This document shows, piece after piece, positions 35,578-47,626 of a stretch of DNA of 48,460 bases. Positions within the stretch are counted from its first letter, which is position 1; the number at the start of each line of letters is the position of its first letter. Made by a program: the position numbers and the translations under genes. Source of the stretch: Deltaproteobacteria bacterium (lineage in GTDB: Bacteria; Desulfobacterota; DSM-4660; Desulfatiglandales; HGW-15). The notes beneath the pieces were generated by a model. It had not been told where the DNA came from, did no database searches, and was given only the letters and a program-made list of their open reading frames with translations. The stretch covers positions 1 through 48,460 of the forward strand of contig JAFDEE010000035.1 in the NCBI GenBank assembly GCA_019310525.1. The letters are read 5' to 3'.

Positions 35578-35613
35578 GATTGATCAGTAACTTTTTGAGA
35601 GGGGAGGGGTAAA

Positions 35614-35964
35614 ATGGCCGATTTCTTGTTTGTCCTGAGTCATGATGACAATGAAAAGGCGACCCGGTGTTTTCAGTTCGCAAAGATCGCCCATTCAAAG
35701 GGACATCGGGTCAATCTGTTTTTTATCGATGGGGGAGTTATGTGGGCAGACTCTGAGAGGGATATGAATATCAAGACCCTCACCGGTGACTGCCCCAACG
35801 ACTATTTCCCCTACCTAGTGGAAAACGAGGTCCCCATCGGAGTTTGAATCCCCTGCGCAAAGGCTCGTCAGGTTGACGAGTCCAAGTTTTTCTCCAACAT
35901 GGTCCTGGACGGCGGTCCGCACCTGATCGATTTGGCCGCTGAGTCCAAGGTCTTCAATTTTTAG
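35614..35964 (+). CDS. DsrE-like protein, probable selenoprotein (in-frame TGA at codon 78)
   Basis: Read with the TGA at 35845-35847 as selenocysteine, this is one gene of 116 residues. The first 77 (ADFLFVLSHDDNEKATRCFQ...) match DsrE family proteins. The TGA would be Sec78, giving U-I-P-C-A-K-A-R, where relatives have C-T-P-C-A-K-A-R; this is a redox C-x-x-C turned into U-x-x-C. The frame stays open for 38 further family-like codons to TAG at 35962-35964. 16 bases past the TGA a perfect 6-bp stem (CTCGTC/GACGAG) with loop AGGTT (35864-35880) resembles a bacterial SECIS. GGGGAGGGG precedes the ATG. The other explanation, a nonsense mutation, would not explain the hairpin. Confidence 0.82.
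35862..35882 (+). promoter_or_regulatory. Candidate bacterial SECIS hairpin
   Basis: GGCTCGTC pairs with GACGAGTCC-type sequence (one G-U pair) around the apical loop AGGTT. It starts 15 bases after the in-frame TGA, and the loop is about 23 bases after it, in the range used by SelB. The guanines in the loop resemble the AGGU loop of the E. coli fdhF element. Confidence 0.7.
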
Positions 35965-35999: not shown

Positions 36000-36779
36000 C
36001 TAGCTCCCGTTGCGGCCGTCCTTCCACCCGTACTGCCCCTCCAGATCCCATCCTTCGATTTCCTCCTTTTGGGGGGGTTGGTAGAGGCCTATCCTGCTAG
36101 GACCCCATTTGAACCGGGCCTTCAAGTCCATCAGGAGTTCCAGGTACTTCAAGGGAGCGAGCAAGGGATCGATCACAGGAACGCCAAGGTCGGCCTGAAG
36201 TGCCCGGTAGAAGCCGAATCCCATGGTGCAACCCAGTAGGATGACCTCGGCACCGTCCCTCTCAATCGCTTCCAGCGCCGCTTCCTTGAAGCGGCGCTGG
36301 GTTTCTTCAGGGTCGCTTTGCAGGTCGGGAGCACCGAAATCTATGGCCTTCAGAGAGCAGAGCTTTGTTGTAAAGCCGTAACGATGCACTACTTCCAGCA
36401 TCCGGGGGATCCATTTGCGGCGGCCGAGAATAATCGAAAATGAATGCCCCAAGGTGGCGCCGATGTGCATGGAGGCCTCGGCCGGACCGGTCATGACCAG
36501 CCTTTCGGCGATCTCCCTGCCTTCTAAAAGCCCCACGTCATAGTAACAACCGACCACCGCCCCATCATATCCTTCCTGATCCGCCCGCTTGATCCAATGC
36601 AGGACGTCTGGCAATACCAGGGCTTCATAGAAGCGGTATTCTAGGTGGAGGGGTCCCCGGCTGAGGGAGACGGTTTTGATCTCCACATCCCGGGCCTTTT
36701 CTCTGTCAAGAAATTCCTTGATGGTCGTGTCGAGTTCGTCTGTCCCGACCGCCCTGATCCATAACACACTCTTAGGCAT
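36000..36779 (-). CDS. Asp/Glu/hydantoin racemase family protein (1)
   Basis: A 259-residue protein of the Asp/Glu racemase superfamily. Two catalytic cysteines are expected; they fit VVGCYYDVGL (first half) and ILLGCTMGFGF (second half). The LGVPVIDPLLAPLKYLE end is usual for hydantoin racemases and maleate isomerase-like enzymes. It is the last gene of the minus-strand peptide locus, 98 bases after dppF. A second, shorter racemase-family gene lies upstream in the same locus (44168-44869), so the two probably act on different products. The substrate is not known. Confidence 0.82.
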   Translation of the reverse strand: MPKSVLWIRAVGTDELDTTIKEFLDREKARDVEIKTVSLSRGPLHLEYRFYEALVLPDVLHWIKRADQEGYDGAVVGCYYDVGLLEGREIAERLVMTGPAEASMHIGATLGHSFSIILGRRKWIPRMLEVVHRYGFTTKLCSLKAIDFGAPDLQSDPEETQRRFKEAALEAIERDGAEVILLGCTMGFGFYRALQADLGVPVIDPLLAPLKYLELLMDLKARFKWGPSRIGLYQPPQKEEIEGWDLEGQYGWKDGRNGS

Positions 36780-36840
36780 GCTTTACGCCTCCTTTCACGG
36801 CTCCTTCGTAGTAGATTCATAGAGGCCTTCGAACCCAAAT

Positions 36841-36880
36841 TTTGCATAAACAATCTTGAATCTGTGGATACTCCCCCTTA
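36841..36880 (+). repeat. Fragment of repeat family C
   Basis: TTTGCATAAACAATCTTGAA is identical to the left end of repeat C at 1510 and 38853, followed by diverged sequence (ATCTGTGGATACTCCCCC) before the dppF stop. It is probably a remnant or a partial copy. Confidence 0.6.
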
Positions 36881-37846
36881 TACCCTGTGGCATGCCGCCC
36901 AGTGCCCCGGCTCGATCTCGATCAGCTCAGGCCGGATTTCCGAACATTGTGGGAGGGCATCGGAACAACGCGGATGAAAGGCACACCCGCCGGGCGGGTT
37001 TACCTGGCTGGGCACCTCGCCCCTGATCCCGCGGGGCTTTCTGGGGACGAATGGGTCGGGTTTTGGAACAGCGGAGAGTAGCGCTCGGGTATAGGGGTGC
37101 CCGGGGCGGGTGAACAGGGCGTTTCGGTCGGCCAGTTCCACGATCCGACCGAGGTACATGACGGCCACCCGATCGCAGATGTGGCGGACCACGCTCAAGT
37201 CATGGGAGATGAAGAGGTAGGTGAGGGAGAAGCGCGACTGAAGATCTAAGAGAAGATTGAGGATTTGGGCCTGGATGGAAACGTCAAGGGCTGAAACCGG
37301 TTCGTCGGCGATGATCAGTTTGGGGCTCAAGGCCAGGGCCCGGGCCACACAGACCCTCTGACGCTGTCCACCGGAAAACTCGTGGGGGTAGCGATAAACG
37401 TGCTCGGGCCGAAGGCCCACGAGGGCTGCTAATTCCTCCCTTCTTTTTTTTCTCTCATCCCTGGAGTAAAGTCCATGTACAGCGAAAGCCTCGCCGATGA
37501 TCCTGCCCACGGTTTTCCTGGGGTTCAGGGATGAGTAAGGGTCCTGGAAGATGATTTGCATATCCCGACGAATCGTTCGCATTTCCGAGCGATTCAACCC
37601 CGCTATATCTCGACCCTCGAAGAGGATCCGTCCACCGGTGGGTTCCTCGAGCCTGAGGATGCAGCGGCCGATGGTGGTCTTGCCGCACCCGGACTCTCCC
37701 ACCAGTCCGAAGGTCTCTCCTCGGCGGATGGTGAGAGATACACCGTCTACGGCCTTTACGAAGTGTTTCGGCTTCCTGAAAAATCCTCCGCCTATGGGGA
37801 AGTATTTTTTCAGTTCTTCTATCTTCAGTAACGCATCTCTATTCAT
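36878..37846 (-). CDS. dppF: Peptide ABC transporter ATP-binding protein (DppF/OppF family)
   Basis: One of two ATPases that drive the peptide importer. Walker A is [15 protein letters not shown], the Q loop follows in [16 protein letters not shown], the ABC signature is [14 protein letters not shown] and Walker [15 protein letters not shown]. The C-terminal [18 protein letters not shown] and [18 protein letters not shown] regions are the OppF-type extension that carries conserved cysteines. I use the ATG at 37846, which overlaps the dppD stop by eight bases; an ATG at 37867 with a better ribosome site is also possible. The gene precedes the racemase at 36000. Confidence 0.93.
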
Positions 37847-38816
37847 AGAGCCAACATCGCACTCCATGGCCTTCCTGGATTCGGATCAGGGGGGGCGGCT
37901 CCTCACGGCATTTTTTTAAGGCCCGGGGACACCGTTCCCGGAAAGTGCAGCCTTCCGGAAGGTGAAAAAGGCTGGGGACCAGGCCCGGGATGACCTCCAG
38001 GTGCTTGTCCTTTTGGATTGGCTTCGTGATACTGGGAATGGAGGCCATCAACCCTTGGGTATAAGGATGAAAAGGATTTCTGAAAAGGGCCTTGACCTTC
38101 GCTTCCTCCACTACTTGGCCCGTGTACATCACCGCCACCCGGCTGGCCATTTCGGCAATAACTCCAAGATCGTGGGTAATCAGGAGAACAGCTGCGCCCA
38201 TCTCCTCCTTGAGCTCAATGAGCAGGTCGAGGATCTGGGCCTGTATGGTCACGTCCAGGGCTGTGGTGGGTTCGTCGGCAATAAGGAGGGAGGGACGACT
38301 GGAGAGGGCCATGGCGATCATGACCCTCTGGCGCATGCCCCCGCTGATCTGGTGGGGGTATTCCCCGAATTTTCTGGAAGGGTCCGGTATGCCGACCTTA
38401 ATTAGCATCTCCAGGGCCGTTTCCTTTGCCTCGGCCTTCGAGACCCCCCGGTGAATCCTGATGATTTCCGTCATCTGGGCGCCGATCGTGAAAACCGGGT
38501 TCAGGGAGGTCATAGGCTCCTGGAAAATCATGGAAATGGAACGCCCCCGGATCCTTCGCATTTTCGCTTCACTCAGCCGAAGCAAATCCTGGCCCCTGAA
38601 CAGGACACGGCCCTTCAGGATGCGCCCGGGAGGATCCGGAATGAGCCGGATCACGGAAAGAGCGGTTACGCTCTTGCCGCACCCGGACTCCCCAACCAAC
38701 CCGAAGGTTTCACCCTCTTGGATGGTCAAGTCCAGCCCCTTCACCGCGAGGGCCGTTCCCTCATCGGTATTGAATCGGGTATGTAGATTTTTTACTTCCA
38801 GAAGTGGCTCAACCAT
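37839..38816 (-). CDS. dppD: Peptide ABC transporter ATP-binding protein (DppD/OppD family)
   Basis: The second ATPase of the importer, 325 residues. It opens with the typical [32 protein letters not shown], then Walker [15 protein letters not shown] loop [16 protein letters not shown], the ABC signature [14 protein letters not shown] and Walker [15 protein letters not shown]. The C-terminal [19 protein letters not shown] carries the OppD-type cysteine motif. It overlaps dppF. The gap of about 330 bases to dppC is filled by repeat C (38853-39102), an interruption within an otherwise compact operon. Confidence 0.94.
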
Positions 38817-38852
38817 TTTTTAAAGAGAAGAAGAAAATAATGTAATTCCTGA

Positions 38853-39102
38853 ATCTTGCATAAACAATCTTGAACCCGTTAAAAAATTCATTGAAATTCC
38901 CCCTGTTAGGTCATAACCAGAGGGGGATGGAAGTTCTGCCCGATGGGTGAGAACAGAATAAAGAGTAATATTTCAAGATTGTTTACCCTTCGGGAGCGTC
39001 GATTTTACCCGGGATCTGCTTCTTTATCGACCGCTCGCGGTAGGAGAGTATAGCTGCGCGGTCGATGCCTCGCATCTTCGGCAAACTCGACGCTTGCAAG
39101 AT
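38853..39102. repeat. Repeat family C copy 2 (uninterrupted) inside the dpp operon
   Basis: Runs from ATCTTGCATAAACAATCTTG to CGACGCTTGCAAGAT, 250 bases, nearly identical to the copy at 1510-1864 apart from the A2 insertion there. It lies between dppC and dppD and has no coding frame. Confidence 0.75.
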
Positions 39103-39144
39103 CCAGGTATTTGTCGTTTTCCCGACATCGGAGCGTTGAATCCT

Positions 39145-40020
39145 TCACTTCAATCGCAGCTTGGGATTGAACACCTCCCTTAACCCGTCGCCGATCAAGG
39201 TACAGCCGGCAACCCCCAACATGATGAACAGACCCGGGAAGACGGTGGTCCACCATTGGCCGTTTATGATGTATTGCCTCCCCTCGGCGATCATAAGGCC
39301 CCATTCGGGGGTGGGTAACTTGGCGCCAAGGCCGATGAAGCTCAGACTGGCCACCCATAGGACTCCGTAACCAGTATAGATGGTTCCCTGGACGATCAGG
39401 GGAGTCATGCAGTTGGGCAGCACATCGGTCAGGATGATCCTGAGATGCCCGGAACCCAGGGCATAGGCCGCTTGTATGTAATCCATGCGCTTCACCTGGA
39501 TAGCCCGGCTGCGGGCCATCCGGGCGAAGATGGGGATGTAGGAGATACCGATGGCCAGGGCTGCGTTGAGCAGGGAAGGTCCCAATCCCGAAACGATCGC
39601 CATGGCGAGGATCAGGGGAGGAAACGCCAGCAGCACGTCGGCCACCCGCATGAAGACCATGTCGATTCCCCGTCCGAAGTAGCCCGAAACGAGTCCCAGC
39701 GGCGTACCCGCGAGGATCCCGACCATCACTGCCACCAGGGCGGAAAGCAGGGTATAGCGCGCACCGGCGAATATCCGGCTCATGATGTCCCGGCCGTAAT
39801 TGTCGGTCCCAAAGGGATGGGACAGGGTAGGGCCCATGAGTTTTTCCTTGAAGCAGGTCCCCAGGGGATCGTGGGGGGCCAGGGCTTCTCCGAAGAGGAC
39901 CAGAACGAAGACCACGGCCAGGATCGCCAAACCTGCGATTGCCGGCTTGTTCTTCATGAACAGGCGAAATTTATAGCGGAGAGAATTGGTATCTATCGGA
40001 CTTTCTTCACTCGGTTTCAT
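39145..40020 (-). CDS. dppC: Peptide ABC transporter permease (DppC family)
   Basis: A 291-residue inner-membrane permease. The N-terminal cytoplasmic part and first membrane segment (IAGLAILAVVFVLVLFGEALAPHDPL) are typical of DppC, which is followed by HPFGTDNYGRDIMSRIFAGARYTL. The EAA loop that contacts the ATPases reads YIQAAYALGSGHLRIILTDVLPNCMTPLIV. It is separated from dppB by six bases. The family assignment is firm. Confidence 0.94.
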   Translation of the reverse strand: MKPSEESPIDTNSLRYKFRLFMKNKPAIAGLAILAVVFVLVLFGEALAPHDPLGTCFKEKLMGPTLSHPFGTDNYGRDIMSRIFAGARYTLLSALVAVMVGILAGTPLGLVSGYFGRGIDMVFMRVADVLLAFPPLILAMAIVSGLGPSLLNAALAIGISYIPIFARMARSRAIQVKRMDYIQAAYALGSGHLRIILTDVLPNCMTPLIVQGTIYTGYGVLWVASLSFIGLGAKLPTPEWGLMIAEGRQYIINGQWWTTVFPGLFIMLGVAGCTLIGDGLREVFNPKLRLK

Positions 40021-40026
40021 GGCCCA

Positions 40027-41046
40027 TTACTCCAATTGTACTCTGGGATCGATCAATCGATATGAGATATCCACGATCAGGTTGATCACTGCGAAGATGA
40101 GCACGTAGAAGAGGATAAATCCCTGAAGTCCCGCATAGTCCAGGTATTGGATCGATTCCACGGCGAAGGATCCCACTCCCGGCCAGGCGAAGATCACCTC
40201 CGTCAAGACGGATCCGCCTAGGAGACCTCCGTAAATGGCCCCGGCCATGGTCACGGTCGGAAGAAGGGCATTTCGGAGGGCGTGGCGGAAGAGAACAGAT
40301 CTCAGACCGACACCCATAGCCTTGGCCGTCCGGATATAGTCTTCCTCGAGGGTTTCGATCAGGTCGGCCTTGAGGGTCCGAACAATGATTGCCCAGTTGA
40401 AAAAGGAAAGGGTGAGCCCTGGTAGAATCAGTTGCTTCAACGCGCCCAGGAAGGCCTTTAGATCCCCGGCCAACAGGGTGTCGATCAGCAGCAGGCCTGT
40501 TACGGTCGGGGGATAGCCTAATTCGGGTGAAAGCCTCCCCATGGGGGGCGGGGCCAGGTTGAGGAGGTAAAAGAAGAAGTAGATCAGCAGAAGCCCGAAC
40601 CAAAAGATGGGCATGGATACACCGATTACTGTAAAGATGCTGATCATGTGGTCAGGTAATCGGTTCCGGTAGTAACCTGCGATGATGCCGAGGGGCAGAC
40701 TGATGACCACCATCAGCAGAAAGGCGAAGGTGGTCAGTTCGAAGGTCGCAGGAAAGCGGCGCAGGAGTTCCTTGCTCACCGGGCTCCCTGCCCGCCAGGA
40801 GTACCCCAGATCGCCTCTGAGCACATGTCCCACGTAGGTCAAGAATTGGATCGGGAGGGGACGGTCCAGGCCCATCATCCGGCTCAAGGCTTCAACGTTC
40901 TCTGGAGAGGAATGGGCCGGGCCGAGAATCATCAGTACGGGGTCACCCGGCAATACCCGTGTCACGATGAACATGAGCAGCAGCGCGCCGAATACCGTGG
41001 GAACGGTATATACCAGGCGCCGCAGGATATATCGACCCAGGCTCAT
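40027..41046 (-). CDS. dppB: Peptide ABC transporter permease (DppB family)
   Basis: A 339-residue permease opening with YILRRLVYTVPTVFGALLLMFIVTRVLPGDPV, the DppB signature. About six membrane segments are visible, and the EAA loop YIRTAKAMGVGLRSVLFRHALRNALLPTVT lies at about residues 228-257. The gene follows the binding-protein gene after a 99-base gap that contains a strong hairpin. Confidence 0.94.
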   Translation of the reverse strand: MSLGRYILRRLVYTVPTVFGALLLMFIVTRVLPGDPVLMILGPAHSSPENVEALSRMMGLDRPLPIQFLTYVGHVLRGDLGYSWRAGSPVSKELLRRFPATFELTTFAFLLMVVISLPLGIIAGYYRNRLPDHMISIFTVIGVSMPIFWFGLLLIYFFFYLLNLAPPPMGRLSPELGYPPTVTGLLLIDTLLAGDLKAFLGALKQLILPGLTLSFFNWAIIVRTLKADLIETLEEDYIRTAKAMGVGLRSVLFRHALRNALLPTVTMAGAIYGGLLGGSVLTEVIFAWPGVGSFAVESIQYLDYAGLQGFILFYVLIFAVINLIVDISYRLIDPRVQLE

Positions 41047-41092
41047 GAATCGATTGGAACCCGTTTCTAACAGCGAAATCCTTACTATTAAA

Positions 41093-41130
41093 GAGCACCT
41101 TCCACCCCGGGGGAGGGGGGGAAGGTGCTC
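41093..41130 (-). terminator. Hairpin between dppA and dppB, probable attenuator
   Basis: GAGCACCTTCC and GGAAGGTGCTC are perfect 11-base arms around a GC-rich 16-base loop; on the minus strand the right arm is followed by TTTAATAG, a weak U-run. It would allow more mRNA for the binding protein than for the permeases, as in many ABC operons. Confidence 0.65.
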
Positions 41131-41145
41131 CGCATCCTTCGGTTT

Positions 41146-42735
41146 CTACTCGAAATAAATGGTTCGAACGTGGAACTGATCGTCCGGATTCAGACAGAAA
41201 CCCTTGACCCGTTTGTTCATGGCCGTGTCGGCTATGGGCTGGAACATGAAGATCCAGAGGTCATTGTCGATCACGTACTTTTGTACTTTCCTGGCCAGGG
41301 CGTACCGGGCTTTCTTGTCCACCATGGTCGAGGCCTGCTCGATCCATGCGTCCAGTTGGGGATCCTTGATCCTGGCATAGTTGCAGAAGCTCTTGGAACC
41401 CAGCAGGAACCCGAATTGGTACCAGGGATCTGTCACGAAGGAGGTCCATGCGACCATGAATATAGGGACTTTCCCGTTCTTGAGCTTGTCGAGGAACACC
41501 GCCTGGGGCAGAACATTGATATCCATTTTCACCCCAATCTTGGACAATTCCGCCTGCCAAGTCACGGCCACTTCCTTGTTGTTGGGGATTCGGCCCTCTC
41601 CGATCTGGAAGGAGAAGGAAAGGCCGTCCTTGTATCCGGCCTTGGCCAACAGTTCCTTGGCCTTTTTCAGATCCTGCTTGTAATGGAAAAATTCGGACGT
41701 GTGCCCGGGGCTCCCCTGGGAAGCTGGGCTGGTCATCTGGATGGCCCTGCCGTAAAGGACGTTGTTGATGACCGACTTATAGGGGAAGGAGTAGGCCAGG
41801 GCCTTTCGGACCAGAGGGTTGTTGAAGGGGGGATGGTTGCGGTTCATGTCGATGTAGTTGATCTTGATGGTCGGTCGGCCGATGACCTTCAGGTTTTTCT
41901 TCTTTGACAGCAGCGCGTAGTCCTTGGAGGGGATCCACCACATGATGTCTGTTTTTCCCCGCTCCAGCAACATCGCCCTGGTCGATTCTTCGGGAATGAT
42001 CTGGTAAATCACCTTCTTTATCTTCGGCTTGGGCCCCCAGTACCTTTCGAAACGCTCGAAGACTATCTCCACCCCCGGCTTGTATGATACCAGTTTGAAG
42101 GGCCCTGATCCGCAATCGTTTCTGGCCACCCACTCGTTTATCTTCCCCTCCATTACTCCGCCATGGGCCTCGACCGTTTTGGGGTCCTGTATCCCCAGGT
42201 TCAGCATCTGCAGGTAGTCCAGCAAAAGGGGGTTGGGCCCTTCCAGCTTGAAGCGGATGGTGTGCTCATCCAGGACCTCCATTCCCTTCTCGGTGATTTT
42301 TGCCAGCCACAGCACGGTCTTTGCCGCCAGTTTCGTTTTCCGGTACCTGGTGAAGGTGTATTTCACCGCCTGGGCATTGACCGGGTTTCCGGAATGAAAG
42401 ACTGCGTCTTTCCGGAGATAAAAGGTCCATTCGGACATGTCTGCGTTGTGTTCCCATCGCTCGGCAAGCATGGGCACCACCTTGGTGGTGTCTACCTTGA
42501 CGGTGCCGTCGGGCTGAGGGACTCTTTCGTACTGGACCAGAAAATCATACATCGCTCCAACGGCCGCATACCCTGTGTAGTCGCGGGTTATGGTCGCGGG
42601 ATCGAAGGTTCGGGCATCGGTTATAAAGGCTACCCTTAGGGTATCTTTCGCCTTGACCGATGGGATTGCCACCCCGACTCCCAAGAGAATCGTGAGGGTC
42701 AGGGCTAGAGCCGTCGATTTGATTGAAAAACGCAT
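41146..42735 (-). CDS. dppA: Peptide ABC transporter substrate-binding protein (family 5)
   Basis: A 529-residue periplasmic binding protein of the Dpp/Opp/Nik family 5. The signal peptide is visible at the N-terminus (MRFSIKSTALALTLTILLGVGVAIPSVKA) followed by KDTLRVAFITDARTFDPATI. Family features in order: MYDFLVQYERV, DMSEWTFYLRKDAVFHSGNPVNAQAVKYTFTRY, and the C-terminal DPQLDAWIEQAS segment. The ATG at 42735 has GGAGGGGGAAA upstream; the longer frame is not needed. No lipoprotein box is seen, so it is free in the periplasm. The ligand is a peptide or related oligomer; the exact type is unknown. Confidence 0.9.
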   Translation of the reverse strand: MRFSIKSTALALTLTILLGVGVAIPSVKAKDTLRVAFITDARTFDPATITRDYTGYAAVGAMYDFLVQYERVPQPDGTVKVDTTKVVPMLAERWEHNADMSEWTFYLRKDAVFHSGNPVNAQAVKYTFTRYRKTKLAAKTVLWLAKITEKGMEVLDEHTIRFKLEGPNPLLLDYLQMLNLGIQDPKTVEAHGGVMEGKINEWVARNDCGSGPFKLVSYKPGVEIVFERFERYWGPKPKIKKVIYQIIPEESTRAMLLERGKTDIMWWIPSKDYALLSKKKNLKVIGRPTIKINYIDMNRNHPPFNNPLVRKALAYSFPYKSVINNVLYGRAIQMTSPASQGSPGHTSEFFHYKQDLKKAKELLAKAGYKDGLSFSFQIGEGRIPNNKEVAVTWQAELSKIGVKMDINVLPQAVFLDKLKNGKVPIFMVAWTSFVTDPWYQFGFLLGSKSFCNYARIKDPQLDAWIEQASTMVDKKARYALARKVQKYVIDNDLWIFMFQPIADTAMNKRVKGFCLNPDDQFHVRTIYFE

Positions 42736-42810
42736 TTTCCCCCTCCTCTTTTGTATCGGTTCCTGAATCATGGGCCCCGCTCCCGGGCCGAGGTCGGCCC
42801 GGGGCACCTC

Positions 42811-43875
42811 TTAATAACCCGCCACTCCAAGTGCACGGCAGGCGTCAACGAGGTCCGGATGGACATAACGGCCTTCTTCTTCGATGGTCTTGCCATCGAA
42901 GACGATGGTCGGGTTGAGAACAATGCCGTCGGTGTGGGCGGCGGCCTTCCAAGTCTTCCCCATGATCTGGGCCCCCTGGGATCCGATACCCATCTCGATG
43001 CAGCCGAAGACCCTCTCGTCCTCCACGATCCGGCCGGTAACCTTGGTCACGCCGGGATTGAAGCCAAGGGAGTAATGGGCCAACCTGTACATGTTGGGGT
43101 CATTGAATCCCGCCAGCCACTTTTCAAAACGCCTGGCCTCCGGACCGCCCTCCACCTTGGTGACCACCCCCTCCTCCAGGGTCAAATGGACGGGCTCCCG
43201 GAGGATTCCCAGATCTGTCGGAGGATAGAGGGCCCCGTCGAAGGCGAGCCTGCCGTTGATCGTTTCCTCCATCGGGCACCAGGATACCTGTCCTCCCAGC
43301 ATGACGGGTTCGCCGGGTGTATCGGCCAGTTTTCCCGATTGGCGTGCCTTTCGGCCCTTGTTATAGGCCGTAAGCTCGGTACCGGCCGGGCTGTAGATTT
43401 CCACCTTGTCAGCCGACATGATCATCTCCTTCAATCGCTCCCCGAGGGCGATCAGTTTGTGGATATCCACCCGGTAAATGGTATTCACCAGCATGACGGC
43501 GTCCATGCCGGTCAGGCAGATATACCGGGCGCCGTTCTCAATGGCCTTCGAGTAAGCGTTGGACAGGAAGATCAGCCCGACGGCGAATTCGATCCAGACA
43601 TCCGCCCGGGCGATGGCCCCTGCCACCGGGGCCGGTGGCTCCTGGTATCCTTCGCTCTGGGTGGGATGGACGATGACAACCGGGACGGCCCCGGTGGCCA
43701 TGGCGGCCCTGGCCGTGGCCTGAACCACCCTCATGTCCGTACTGGTATCGGCGGTGATGACTACGTTCTCACCGGGTTTTACCAGCATTATCTGCTCCAC
43801 GAGCTTCCGGGCCCCGGCCTCCACTTCCCAGCTCAGGTATTCGTCCCTAACTTCAGTTCCAAGGGTTAATTCCAT
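42811..43875 (-). CDS. M29 aminopeptidase / NicX-like metalloenzyme
   Basis: A 354-residue protein similar to M29-type aminopeptidases and to the iron-dependent NicX ring-cleaving enzyme, which share one fold. The C-terminal text FNDPNMYRLAHYSLGFNP, then GCIEMGIGS, then HTDGIVLNPTIVFDG is typical for both groups and carries the likely Glu/His/Asp metal ligands (H281-type, E and H). In a peptide locus an aminopeptidase is more likely than ring cleavage, but I cannot decide from sequence alone. The ATG at 43875 has AAAGGAGG upstream. It is the gene before dppA in transcription order. Confidence 0.72.
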   Translation of the reverse strand: MELTLGTEVRDEYLSWEVEAGARKLVEQIMLVKPGENVVITADTSTDMRVVQATARAAMATGAVPVVIVHPTQSEGYQEPPAPVAGAIARADVWIEFAVGLIFLSNAYSKAIENGARYICLTGMDAVMLVNTIYRVDIHKLIALGERLKEMIMSADKVEIYSPAGTELTAYNKGRKARQSGKLADTPGEPVMLGGQVSWCPMEETINGRLAFDGALYPPTDLGILREPVHLTLEEGVVTKVEGGPEARRFEKWLAGFNDPNMYRLAHYSLGFNPGVTKVTGRIVEDERVFGCIEMGIGSQGAQIMGKTWKAAAHTDGIVLNPTIVFDGKTIEEEGRYVHPDLVDACRALGVAGY

Positions 43876-44167
43876 CAATAACCTCCTTCCTTTGAAAAAA
43901 CGCCCACTTTTGCCCGATTTTCCGCCTCTCTCACGGCTACGGCGTGACAAGCTGCGCTCGCTACGTTTTTCATCACCCTGTTAATGCCCAAAATAGGATT
44001 TATTCTTCAAGCAGGCGCTCCTGAGAACATCCGGAACCCTGTTTACCGTTGCCTCCGAGTTGTAATCCCTCCGGGCCCGAGGCTTGACTCTGAACAAAAT
44101 TGAACATTTTTCAAAGGTCTCGTGTTCAGGGTATCCTGGATCGGGAGGTGCGGGAATCCTGGAGGCA
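43876..44167. repeat. Composite A2-like / B-like repeat remnants
   Basis: Between the M29-like gene and the second racemase gene. CCTTTGAAAAAACGCCC near 43889 resembles an A2 left end; GCTGCGCTCGCTACGTTTTT (about 43952-43971) matches the segment before repeat B at 13987; CTGAACAAAATTGAACATTT and TTTTTCAAAGGTCTC (44106-44120) are an A2 right end. The copy looks mosaic, with pieces of A and B families joined. No gene is seen. Confidence 0.6.
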
Positions 44168-44869
44168 TCAGCGTTCCGGGACCGGCAGGGGTTCCATGAA
44201 GGCTCGCTTGCTGTGCCGGTAACCAAGATCCAGCATCAGTTCCGCCTGCTTAAGGGTCACCGGGCCGGGATCGATCACGGGAATCCCCAGGCGGTCCTCG
44301 AGCTTCGCCCGCATGTCCGGCAGGGCGCCGCAACCCAGGATCATTGCCTCGATTCCGTCTTTTCCCAGCATGTCTAAGGCCCGTTCCAGCACCCGCTCCT
44401 CGACCTTGGAAATCTGGTCGTATTCAAGTACCGGAAGATTCAAGGGCCGGATCACCGGGATGCGGTCACCCAAGCCCCGTGCGGCGATCTTGCGTCGGAT
44501 GCGATTGACCGATTGATCCAGGGTCGTGAGAATCCCAATCTTCTCGGCCAGGGTCAGGGCGAACACTTGGGAAGTTTCGCCGATGCCGAGGACCGGGATC
44601 CGGGCGATCTCACGGGAACCGGCCAGGCCGGGGTCCGAGAAGCACCAGATGATCACGGCCTGGAAACCTTCTTCCTCCGCCCCTTTCACCAGAGGCAGGA
44701 CATGGGCGGCCCCCCTGGCCTCGTCATATTCAGACTGGATCGCCTCGGGACCGTGAGCAAGGTTGCGGATTTCGACCTCTATTTTCGGCCTGAGCCAGCG
44801 CCGGGCCGCGGCCTCCACGCTTTGGTTCCACTTTTTCGTGGAGACTGGAATGATTACCCTTATTTTCAC
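44168..44869 (-). CDS. Asp/Glu/hydantoin racemase family protein (2)
   Basis: A 233-residue racemase-family protein. Cysteines likely to serve as acid/base catalysts lie in VIIWCFSDPGL and MILGCGALPDM, and the end LGIPVIDPGPVTLKQAELML is typical of hydantoin racemases. It starts 15 bases after pepD and lies upstream of the M29-like gene. It differs clearly from the first racemase at 36000 (shorter, different central segment). The substrate is unknown; conversion of amino-acid or hydantoin enantiomers is a reasonable guess. Confidence 0.83.
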   Translation of the reverse strand: MKIRVIIPVSTKKWNQSVEAAARRWLRPKIEVEIRNLAHGPEAIQSEYDEARGAAHVLPLVKGAEEEGFQAVIIWCFSDPGLAGSREIARIPVLGIGETSQVFALTLAEKIGILTTLDQSVNRIRRKIAARGLGDRIPVIRPLNLPVLEYDQISKVEERVLERALDMLGKDGIEAMILGCGALPDMRAKLEDRLGIPVIDPGPVTLKQAELMLDLGYRHSKRAFMEPLPVPER

Positions 44870-44884
44870 GGGGCCCTTCCTTTC

Positions 44885-46354
44885 TCACTCCCCCAGGTCC
44901 CGGAGAAGGGAGGTTAAAAAGGACCAGAGTTCCAGGACCGATGTGATCTCAAGGGATTCTTCCGGGGAATGGGCGTTTCGGATCGTAGCCCCCAGACTGA
45001 TGGCGTCCAGTCCCTTGAATTTGCTGCAAAGCACTCCACACTCCAGTCCGGCATGGATTGATGCAACGGTCGGCTCCCGCCCGAAGACCCTGGAGTAAAT
45101 CTTCTTCGCCCGTTGAAGGAGGGGGGAATCAGGCCGGGGTTTCCATCCGGGATAACCGACACCCGTTTCCGTCTCCCCACCGGCCAGAGTAGCGCAGGCC
45201 CGAACCGTGTCGCTGAGAGCCTCCATTTCCGAATCCACGAAGCTTCGCTGTTTGGTCCCCAGGGTCAACCGCTCCCCGGACATACCGATCGCCCCCAGGT
45301 TGGTGGAGGTTGTGACCATTTCCGGATTTTGGGGATCCCAGGAAACAGCACCTTGAGGAATTGCCATGATGAGATTGATGAGCTTCTCTTCAAAATTCAG
45401 GGTGAAAACCTTTTTCCCATCAAGGGCACCGCCCGTTTCAATCCTGATCCCTAAGTCCGGCTCGGCCTGTTGATACTCGGTTTGCAGGATTTCGGTAATT
45501 GCAGAAACAGCACTTTTTATGCTCTCCAAGCCGCTCACCGGGATCCCCCCTTCCGCTTCGGCCCGGCGGGGAATGGCGTTCAGGGAGAATCCTCCCTGAA
45601 TGGCCCCCAGTCGAAATTCGGTTGCATCACCGTACCGGATGGCGTGAAGGCCCCTTCCCAGCAGTTTGATGGCGTTGGCTCGGCCCCTGTGGATGTCCAG
45701 CCCGGAATGACCCCCTTTCAGTCCTTCCACGATCAGTTTGATCCCAAGCAGCCCGGGAGGGGCCTCCTCCCATTCCGGGACAAGGTTGATAAACGTGGAC
45801 CTGCTGCCCGCGCTTCCTATGTAAAAGGTTCGGATATCCTCGCAATCCAGATTGATGAGGATTCTTCCGGAGATCAGGTCCGGAGAGATTCCCTGGGCAC
45901 CGATAAGTCCGGTTTCCTCCCCTACAGTGAACAGGCATTCCAAGGGCCCGTGTGGATGATCTGCCGTTTCCATCAGGGCCAGTGAGACGGCCACGCCCAC
46001 ACCGTTGTCTGCACCAAGGGTGGTACCCTTGGCCTTGAGCCAGTTTCCCTCCCGCATCCATTCTATAGGATCCGTTTTGAAGTCAAAGGCAAGACCCGGT
46101 TCCTTTTCGCAGACCATGTCCAGATGGCTTTGTAGGACAACTACAGGAGAGTCCTTGGCCGGGCCCACCGGGGGTTTCAACACTACCAGGTTGCCGGCCT
46201 GATCCATCCGGTGATGCAATCCCAATCTGGAGGCCTGTTTCATGACATATTCGCGGACCTTCTCTTCTCCTCCAGAACAACGGGGGATCCGGGAAATGCG
46301 GTAGAAATGGCGCCAAAAGGCTTGCGGTTCAAGACCTTTGAGAATGGTTTCCAT
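44885..46354 (-). CDS. pepD: Cytosolic nonspecific dipeptidase (PepD, M20 family)
   Basis: A 489-residue zinc dipeptidase, close in length to E. coli PepD. The N-terminal catalytic domain shows LQSHLDMVCEK, GTTLGADNGVGVA and VGEETGLIGAQGI, which hold the metal-binding His, Asp and Glu residues, and GGHSGLDIHRGRANAIKLLGR is the lid domain region. The C-terminal VASIHAGLECGVLCSKF is also typical. The ATG at 46354 suits the family; an extension to 46426 is not needed. This is the first gene of the peptide locus. A good promoter and operator lie directly upstream. Confidence 0.93.
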   Translation of the reverse strand: METILKGLEPQAFWRHFYRISRIPRCSGGEEKVREYVMKQASRLGLHHRMDQAGNLVVLKPPVGPAKDSPVVVLQSHLDMVCEKEPGLAFDFKTDPIEWMREGNWLKAKGTTLGADNGVGVAVSLALMETADHPHGPLECLFTVGEETGLIGAQGISPDLISGRILINLDCEDIRTFYIGSAGSRSTFINLVPEWEEAPPGLLGIKLIVEGLKGGHSGLDIHRGRANAIKLLGRGLHAIRYGDATEFRLGAIQGGFSLNAIPRRAEAEGGIPVSGLESIKSAVSAITEILQTEYQQAEPDLGIRIETGGALDGKKVFTLNFEEKLINLIMAIPQGAVSWDPQNPEMVTTSTNLGAIGMSGERLTLGTKQRSFVDSEMEALSDTVRACATLAGGETETGVGYPGWKPRPDSPLLQRAKKIYSRVFGREPTVASIHAGLECGVLCSKFKGLDAISLGATIRNAHSPEESLEITSVLELWSFLTSLLRDLGE

Positions 46355-46456
46355 GGCTGGAGTCTCTCGTTTAAGAAAATACGAAGGAATGCACTTGACA
46401 GGATAGAGTCCGGGGGATCGCCCCAAAAGGGACCTGCCTACGGTACCCGGCCTAAT

Positions 46457-46957: not shown

Positions 46958-47626
46958 ATGGGCCTGAAGGATAACGTGGTGGTGAGGTTGAGGGAAGCCA
47001 TTGTCAGGGGAGAGTATCGCGGTGGGGAACGTTTAAAGGAAATAGAACTTTGCAGAAGGTTCAATGTTAGCAGAACCCCTGTCCGTGAGGCCCTGAAGGA
47101 ATTGGAGCAGGAATGCCTTGTCGAGATCACCGCTCACCAGGGAGCCAGGGTCAAAGAACTGACTGTCGAGGATATCTACAATATATACGATGTGCTGATC
47201 ATGGTCGAGGGAGTCGCGAGCCGGCTTGCCTGTTCCAAAATCACATCCGAGCAGGTCCAGCGGCTCGAGGAATACCAATTCATGATCGAAAGGGCAGCGG
47301 CCACCAAGAACTACGACTTGGTGCACCAGTTGAACCACCAGTTCCACCGGACGATTGCAGAGTCTTCCGGCAATCCGTATGTCTTACAGATCTGGAACAA
47401 CTTCCGCCACCTGTCCATCCTGCTGGGGCGTTATACCCTTTCTCCCATGATCCCGGACCAGCTCCAACAGACGCTCCTCCAGCATCCTGAAATCATCGAG
47501 GCCATCAAGGCCAAGAACGCCGCCCTGGCGGAGTTTGTCGCCAGACGCCACCTGGAGACGGGAAGGGGGCTCTTGCTGCAATACGTGCAGAAGTTGCGGG
47601 AGCAGCACCGAATCCGGGGCGAGTAG
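46958..47626 (+). CDS. GntR-family regulator, FCD type, of the peptide locus
   Basis: A 222-residue regulator divergent from pepD. The winged-helix domain (VVRLREAIVRGEYRGGERLKEIELCRRFNVSRTPVREALKELEQECLV, about residues 8-55) is standard. The FCD domain has VYDVLIMVEGVASRLA-type text, the metal-binding HQFHRTIAESSGNP, and RRHLETGR near the C-terminus. Two TGTATACA palindromes in the 600-base control region are the best candidates for its binding sites. It probably represses the pepD-dpp operon until an amino acid, peptide or related acid binds. The ATG at 46958 has GGGAGGCGG upstream. Confidence 0.9.
   Translation: MGLKDNVVVRLREAIVRGEYRGGERLKEIELCRRFNVSRTPVREALKELEQECLVEITAHQGARVKELTVEDIYNIYDVLIMVEGVASRLACSKITSEQVQRLEEYQFMIERAAATKNYDLVHQLNHQFHRTIAESSGNPYVLQIWNNFRHLSILLGRYTLSPMIPDQLQQTLLQHPEIIEAIKAKNAALAEFVARRHLETGRGLLLQYVQKLREQHRIRGE

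Follow-up and report, generated by a model that had tools for sequence, protein, structure and literature searches.

The window analyzed here, a stretch of 48,460 nucleotides, carries a gene of the DsrE family whose codon 78 is an in-frame TGA, which raises the question whether this codon ends the protein or is read as selenocysteine (Sec) and, in the latter case, what the resulting protein might do. The region from 35614 to 35964 on the forward strand contains a single DsrE family gene in which the TGA is most likely read as Sec. The features of the locus are the following:

35603 to 35609, forward strand: likely ribosome-binding site, the purine-rich GGAGGGG directly before the ATG, as read from the sequence
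35614 to 35964, forward strand: gene for the predicted DsrE-like selenoprotein, 116 residues with Sec78-Ile-Pro-Cys81, ending in TAG (reading frame, Pfam, homologs, predicted fold)
35845 to 35847, forward strand: TGA codon 78, predicted to be read as selenocysteine (TGC or TGT there in the Cys homologs)
35854 to 35856, forward strand: TGC codon 81, the second residue of the UxxC pair (reading frame, comparison of homologs)
35862 to 35882, forward strand: putative SECIS hairpin of 9 bp with the loop GGU; core 35866-35869 paired to 35875-35878; the loop G at 35871 is conserved (folding, relatives)

The frame opens with the ATG at 35614 and, beyond the TGA, continues through 38 sense codons to the TAG at 35962-35964; the coordinates, the length of 116 residues and the positions of Sec78 and Cys81 given in the original prediction are all correct on re-reading of the sequence. 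The 116-residue reading matches the DsrE family of Pfam (PF02635) over residues 4-116 (E = 1.2e-18; 67.9 bits, with a cut-off of 22.7 bits), and the DsrE/DsrF domain match covers both sides of the in-frame TGA. Standard translation stops at this codon, so that ordinary annotation cuts the protein to 77 residues and loses the active site, here as well as in dozens of relatives. A search of the same genome at E <= 0.001 matched no second copy besides the gene itself.

The full 116-residue reading is predicted to fold as a complete DsrE domain (pLDDT 98.2, pTM 0.90), with residues 75-78 modeled as a strand, residues 79-84 as a helix and Sec78 at the strand-helix turn. The best PDB matches of the model are DsrE of DsrEFH (2hy5), a DsrE-like protein from Sulfolobus (3mc3) and YchN (1jx7). 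In the profile alignment, residue 78 coincides with the conserved Cys in each of these three, which in YchN is the first Cys of CxxC, and residue 81 coincides with the second cysteine of YchN; as counted from an alignment, Sec78 corresponds to chain position 78 of 2hy5_A, that is, the active Cys78 of A. vinosum DsrE.

Homologs of the gene come in two forms. Matches were detected in 45 of 148 related genomes, and the closest ones, 66-84% identical, all contain one in-frame TGA. A scan of 84,980 species, with one genome per species, yielded 80 loci, most of which belong to Desulfobacterota (sulfate reducers and related bacteria); after removal of duplicates, 49 loci have TGA at codon 78 and 49 have TGC (32) or TGT (17). 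Both Sec and Cys forms were added by a sample of 395 genomes of the phylum, 42 of which gave a match at E <= 1e-15. In all, approximately 50 related genes have TGA and approximately 60 others have TGC or TGT at this codon. The earlier observation that the TGA stands where relatives have a cysteine codon thus holds, and in the near relatives the TGA is retained along with the frame beyond it and the hairpin. Since genomes assembled independently share the TGA, it is very unlikely to be a sequencing error. Matched Sec and Cys orthologs are found at about 70-80% identity, and both forms are represented among cultured sulfate reducers, with the Sec form in Desulfacinum infernum and the Cys form in Desulfobacter, Desulfosarcina and Desulfogranum species. 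One related genome (G063; contigs C199, C227 and C139) harbors three TGA-containing copies of the gene. A distant DsrE homolog (L047:1501-1845, reverse strand) has the reversed pair C-K-A-U, in which the TGA is the codon of the second residue; inspection by eye showed no obvious stem directly after this TGA.

The hairpin at 35862-35882, GGCUCGUCA-GGU-UGACGAGUC, consists of 9 bp including one G-U pair, with a folding energy of -12.7 kcal/mol. Taken alone, the folding energy of this single sequence is unremarkable and does not differ significantly from that of dinucleotide shuffles of the 51-nt stretch (z = -1.28; 20 of 200 shuffles equally good). Across the whole window, 0.8% of the TGAs are followed by a comparable 9-bp stem, and when the protein is held fixed and synonymous codons are chosen at random, a 9-bp stem with the loop G arises in 0.19% of the trials. 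Across the relatives, the conserved part is CGUC-AGGUU-GACG, that is, a 4-bp core (CGUC/GACG) with an AGGUU loop, and the outer pairs differ. Of 51 distinct Sec forms, 50 possess the core stem together with the loop G, versus 5 of 62 Cys forms (45 of 46 versus 3 of 49 in the first set), a contrast for which a Fisher test overstates the significance, given that the loci share descent and are not independent. The only Sec form that lacks the core stem and loop G (L024) contains a mismatched C-A pair and folds weakly. Pairs 22-34, 23-33 and 25-31 are invariant; pair 24-32 is U-A in 38 sequences and C-G in 7, and in one sequence it is broken. The change from U24-A32 to C24-G32, with both sides altered, turns residue 88 from Asp to Gly and occurs mainly in one distinct group of Sec proteins. 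No other pair has changed on both sides, and the covariation score by itself does not exceed that of some slid controls, so that the weight of the hairpin is carried by the Sec/Cys contrast and the synonymous-site test. Among 40 Sec relatives, the synonymous difference is low over the eight codons of the hairpin (pS = 0.35) in comparison with the codons that precede the TGA (0.84) and those beyond the hairpin (0.92), and therefore the hairpin is constrained as a nucleic acid. By virtue of this comparative evidence, the hairpin can be considered more than a chance structure. It has the features described for bacterial SECIS elements (PMC1088965), being located just downstream of the TGA and containing a G in a small apical loop. 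The comparison bears out the SECIS hairpin of the original prediction and narrows its conserved part to the 4-bp core and the AGGUU loop. A window-wide scan for TGA codons with an open frame and a strong stem returned six other sites, which are candidates only.

The genome is fully equipped for Sec insertion. A search for the sel genes, which had been suggested as a check, detected all of them in the 3.78 Mb assembly (97% complete): selA; selB, scoring above the curated cut-off; selD, which carries an in-frame TGA at the customary position (GAG-U-ASK) and hence is itself Sec-coded; and tRNA-Sec with the anticodon TCA, identified by both the Rfam model and ARAGORN. The selA, selB, selC and selD genes are located on contigs other than that of the DsrE-like gene. 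In the selD locus of this genome (L018:391-2200), this selenoprotein gene is followed by a yedF-like gene that encodes a TusA domain and a part with CGTC.

Could the TGA nevertheless be a true stop, at which standard translation ends, leaving a truncated pseudogene or a 77-residue protein? This is very improbable considering that dozens of genomes have TGA at the same codon and that, judging from the model, the DsrE fold would require the C-terminal strands and helices. Furthermore, among 40 Sec relatives, the 38 codons after the TGA are under stronger constraint than those before it (pN/pS of 0.09 versus 0.18), and therefore the downstream part is translated and constrained. The open and conserved frame would also fit a TGA read as another amino acid, for example Trp or Cys, through reassignment or suppression. 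This possibility is hardly credible either, in view of the cysteine found at codon 78 of the homologs, the full Sec machinery in the genome and a SECIS hairpin that is retained with TGA and usually lost with Cys. The interpretation as a selenoprotein with Sec at residue 78, already proposed in the original prediction and supported by the machinery and by the TGA, frame and hairpin of the relatives, is almost certain; none of the refuting conditions named with that prediction was borne out. It is from the gene, the hairpin, the machinery and the model fold that we infer the actual insertion of Sec at this residue.

The gene is soundly assigned, by its sequence, as a further member of the DsrE-like selenoprotein (UxxC) family, which, as the original prediction stated, is known from metagenome surveys, having been reported from the Sargasso Sea in 2005 (PMC1088965). 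Such a selenoprotein was described in Desulfovibrio vulgaris in 2006 (PMC1794560) and is included in reviews of 2022 (PMC9312934) and 2026 (PMC13188914), according to the latter of which the functions of such proteins are largely uncharacterized. The published members, among them AACY01486889 (PMC1088965) and WP_014524487.1 of D. vulgaris (PMC13188914), come from other species but, as compared by description, share PF02635, UxxC, a bacterial SECIS after the UGA and Cys homologs. The present analysis may add scale, with dozens of Sec and Cys orthologs, and a clean Sec/Cys contrast in the hairpin. Among characterized structures, YchN of Escherichia coli (1jx7) has the same fold (TM 0.81), a similar length (about 117 residues) and CxxC at the same place, but it employs Cys-x-x-Cys without Sec and is only 16% identical in the structural match. 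DsrE of DsrEFH, or TusD (2hy5), likewise shares the fold, and its active Cys78 aligns with Sec78, but it lacks CxxC and forms a hetero-hexamer with DsrF and DsrH; against the TusD equivalog model TIGR03012, the present protein scores 20.9 bits, far under the cut-off of 89.25. YedF (TIGR03527) resembles it in having a DsrE-like domain with CGxC and a link to selenium, but contains an additional TusA/SirA domain and is here a separate gene beside selD.

With respect to function, a selenol-based sulfane-sulfur carrier or reductase is proposed because residue 78 falls on the active cysteine of DsrE, where DsrE proteins carry sulfur; characterized members bind sulfur groups at this conserved cysteine (PMC4175335). 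SelB with GTP and Sec-tRNA(Sec) would bind the hairpin right after the UGA and insert Sec at residue 78, and the resulting Sec-Ile-Pro-Cys pair would lie at the end of a beta-strand and the start of a helix. The selenol of Sec78 could then attack a persulfide, polysulfide or thiosulfonate, and Cys81 could resolve the Se-S bond, which would free the product and allow re-reduction of the protein. For the resolving step this is an argument from analogy, since the second cysteine of DsrE3A is part of a C-X7-C motif instead of CxxC (PMC4175335). To a cytoplasmic role of this kind in a sulfite-reducing bacterium, judged from the fold and the position of the active cysteine, we give roughly even weight. 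The genome encodes dsrA, as do 23 of 23 genomes with the gene versus 17 of 25 nearby genomes without it, in sets matched neither for kinship nor for completeness; a connection to dissimilatory sulfite reductase is thereby suggested at most.

A less favored but still appreciable alternative is that the Sec protein acts as a general oxidoreductase on thiol-disulfide or peroxide substrates. Thiol oxidoreductases typically contain UxxC pairs, the surveys of 2005-2006 place the DsrE-like selenoprotein among thiol-based redox proteins (PMC1088965, PMC1794560), and the DsrE-like domain of YedF with its CGxC has also been proposed to be redox active (PMC5322559); the predicted fold, however, is that of DsrE and not of thioredoxin, and it is sulfur groups that characterized DsrE proteins bind at the same cysteine. 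Delivery of selenium, as selenide or selenopersulfide, towards SelD appears improbable: the yedF-like gene with TusA and DsrE-like parts directly after selD ties a DsrE-like domain to selenium in this genome, in line with the YedF link (PMC5322559), but the DsrE-like gene itself is not adjacent to the sel genes. The matched Sec and Cys orthologs, some of them in cultured sulfate reducers, make the role of selenium in the DsrE fold testable.

In a tree built from 99 sequences, 4 changes suffice to explain the Sec and Cys labels, compared to 33 for shuffled labels, and one large Cys clade is nested among the Sec forms. Within a Sec group, a gene from Syntrophobacteraceae (L061:636-980) is a Cys form (TGC) that keeps the full SECIS stem in a genome that retains selA, and accordingly looks like a recent Sec to Cys change, likely with a fossil SECIS and without loss of the machinery. 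For the other changes, the direction varies with the placement of the root. Nearly all sampled genomes with Cys forms keep selA; none was found in that of Desulfosarcina cetonica (L091). The Cys form of Desulfogranum japonicum (L106:3001-3348) retains the 4-bp core stem CGUC/GACG with an altered loop, possibly a decayed SECIS. Tentatively, a broader scenario can be outlined in which a stand-alone sulfane-sulfur carrier of sulfite-reducing Desulfobacterota uses Sec where DsrE has its active cysteine, and the lineage exchanged Sec and Cys repeatedly, keeping the Sec machinery and leaving behind at least one fossil SECIS (that of L061). If so, these natural Sec/Cys pairs would allow testing what selenium buys in sulfur transfer.

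The context of the gene gives no pathway because its neighbors are not conserved among relatives: no family is common to more than 7 of the approximately 99 loci, and widespread families, such as ABC ATPases, make up the largest clusters. In the window, no DsrF/DsrH (TusC/TusB) partner genes are adjacent to the gene, which is flanked by one gene from the inositol monophosphatase family and one from the Asp/Glu racemase family. An in-frame TGA at 44885-44887 on the reverse strand was rejected as a read-through site; an M20 peptidase gene simply terminates there, and a separate gene of the Asp/Glu racemase type follows in the same frame. The region 36000-46426 encodes, on the reverse strand, two proteins of the Asp/Glu/hydantoin racemase family, an oligopeptide/dipeptide ABC transporter with its binding protein and the M20 peptidase; together with the GntR/FCD regulator located beyond these genes (46958-47626, forward strand), it looks like an amino-acid or peptide utilization cluster.
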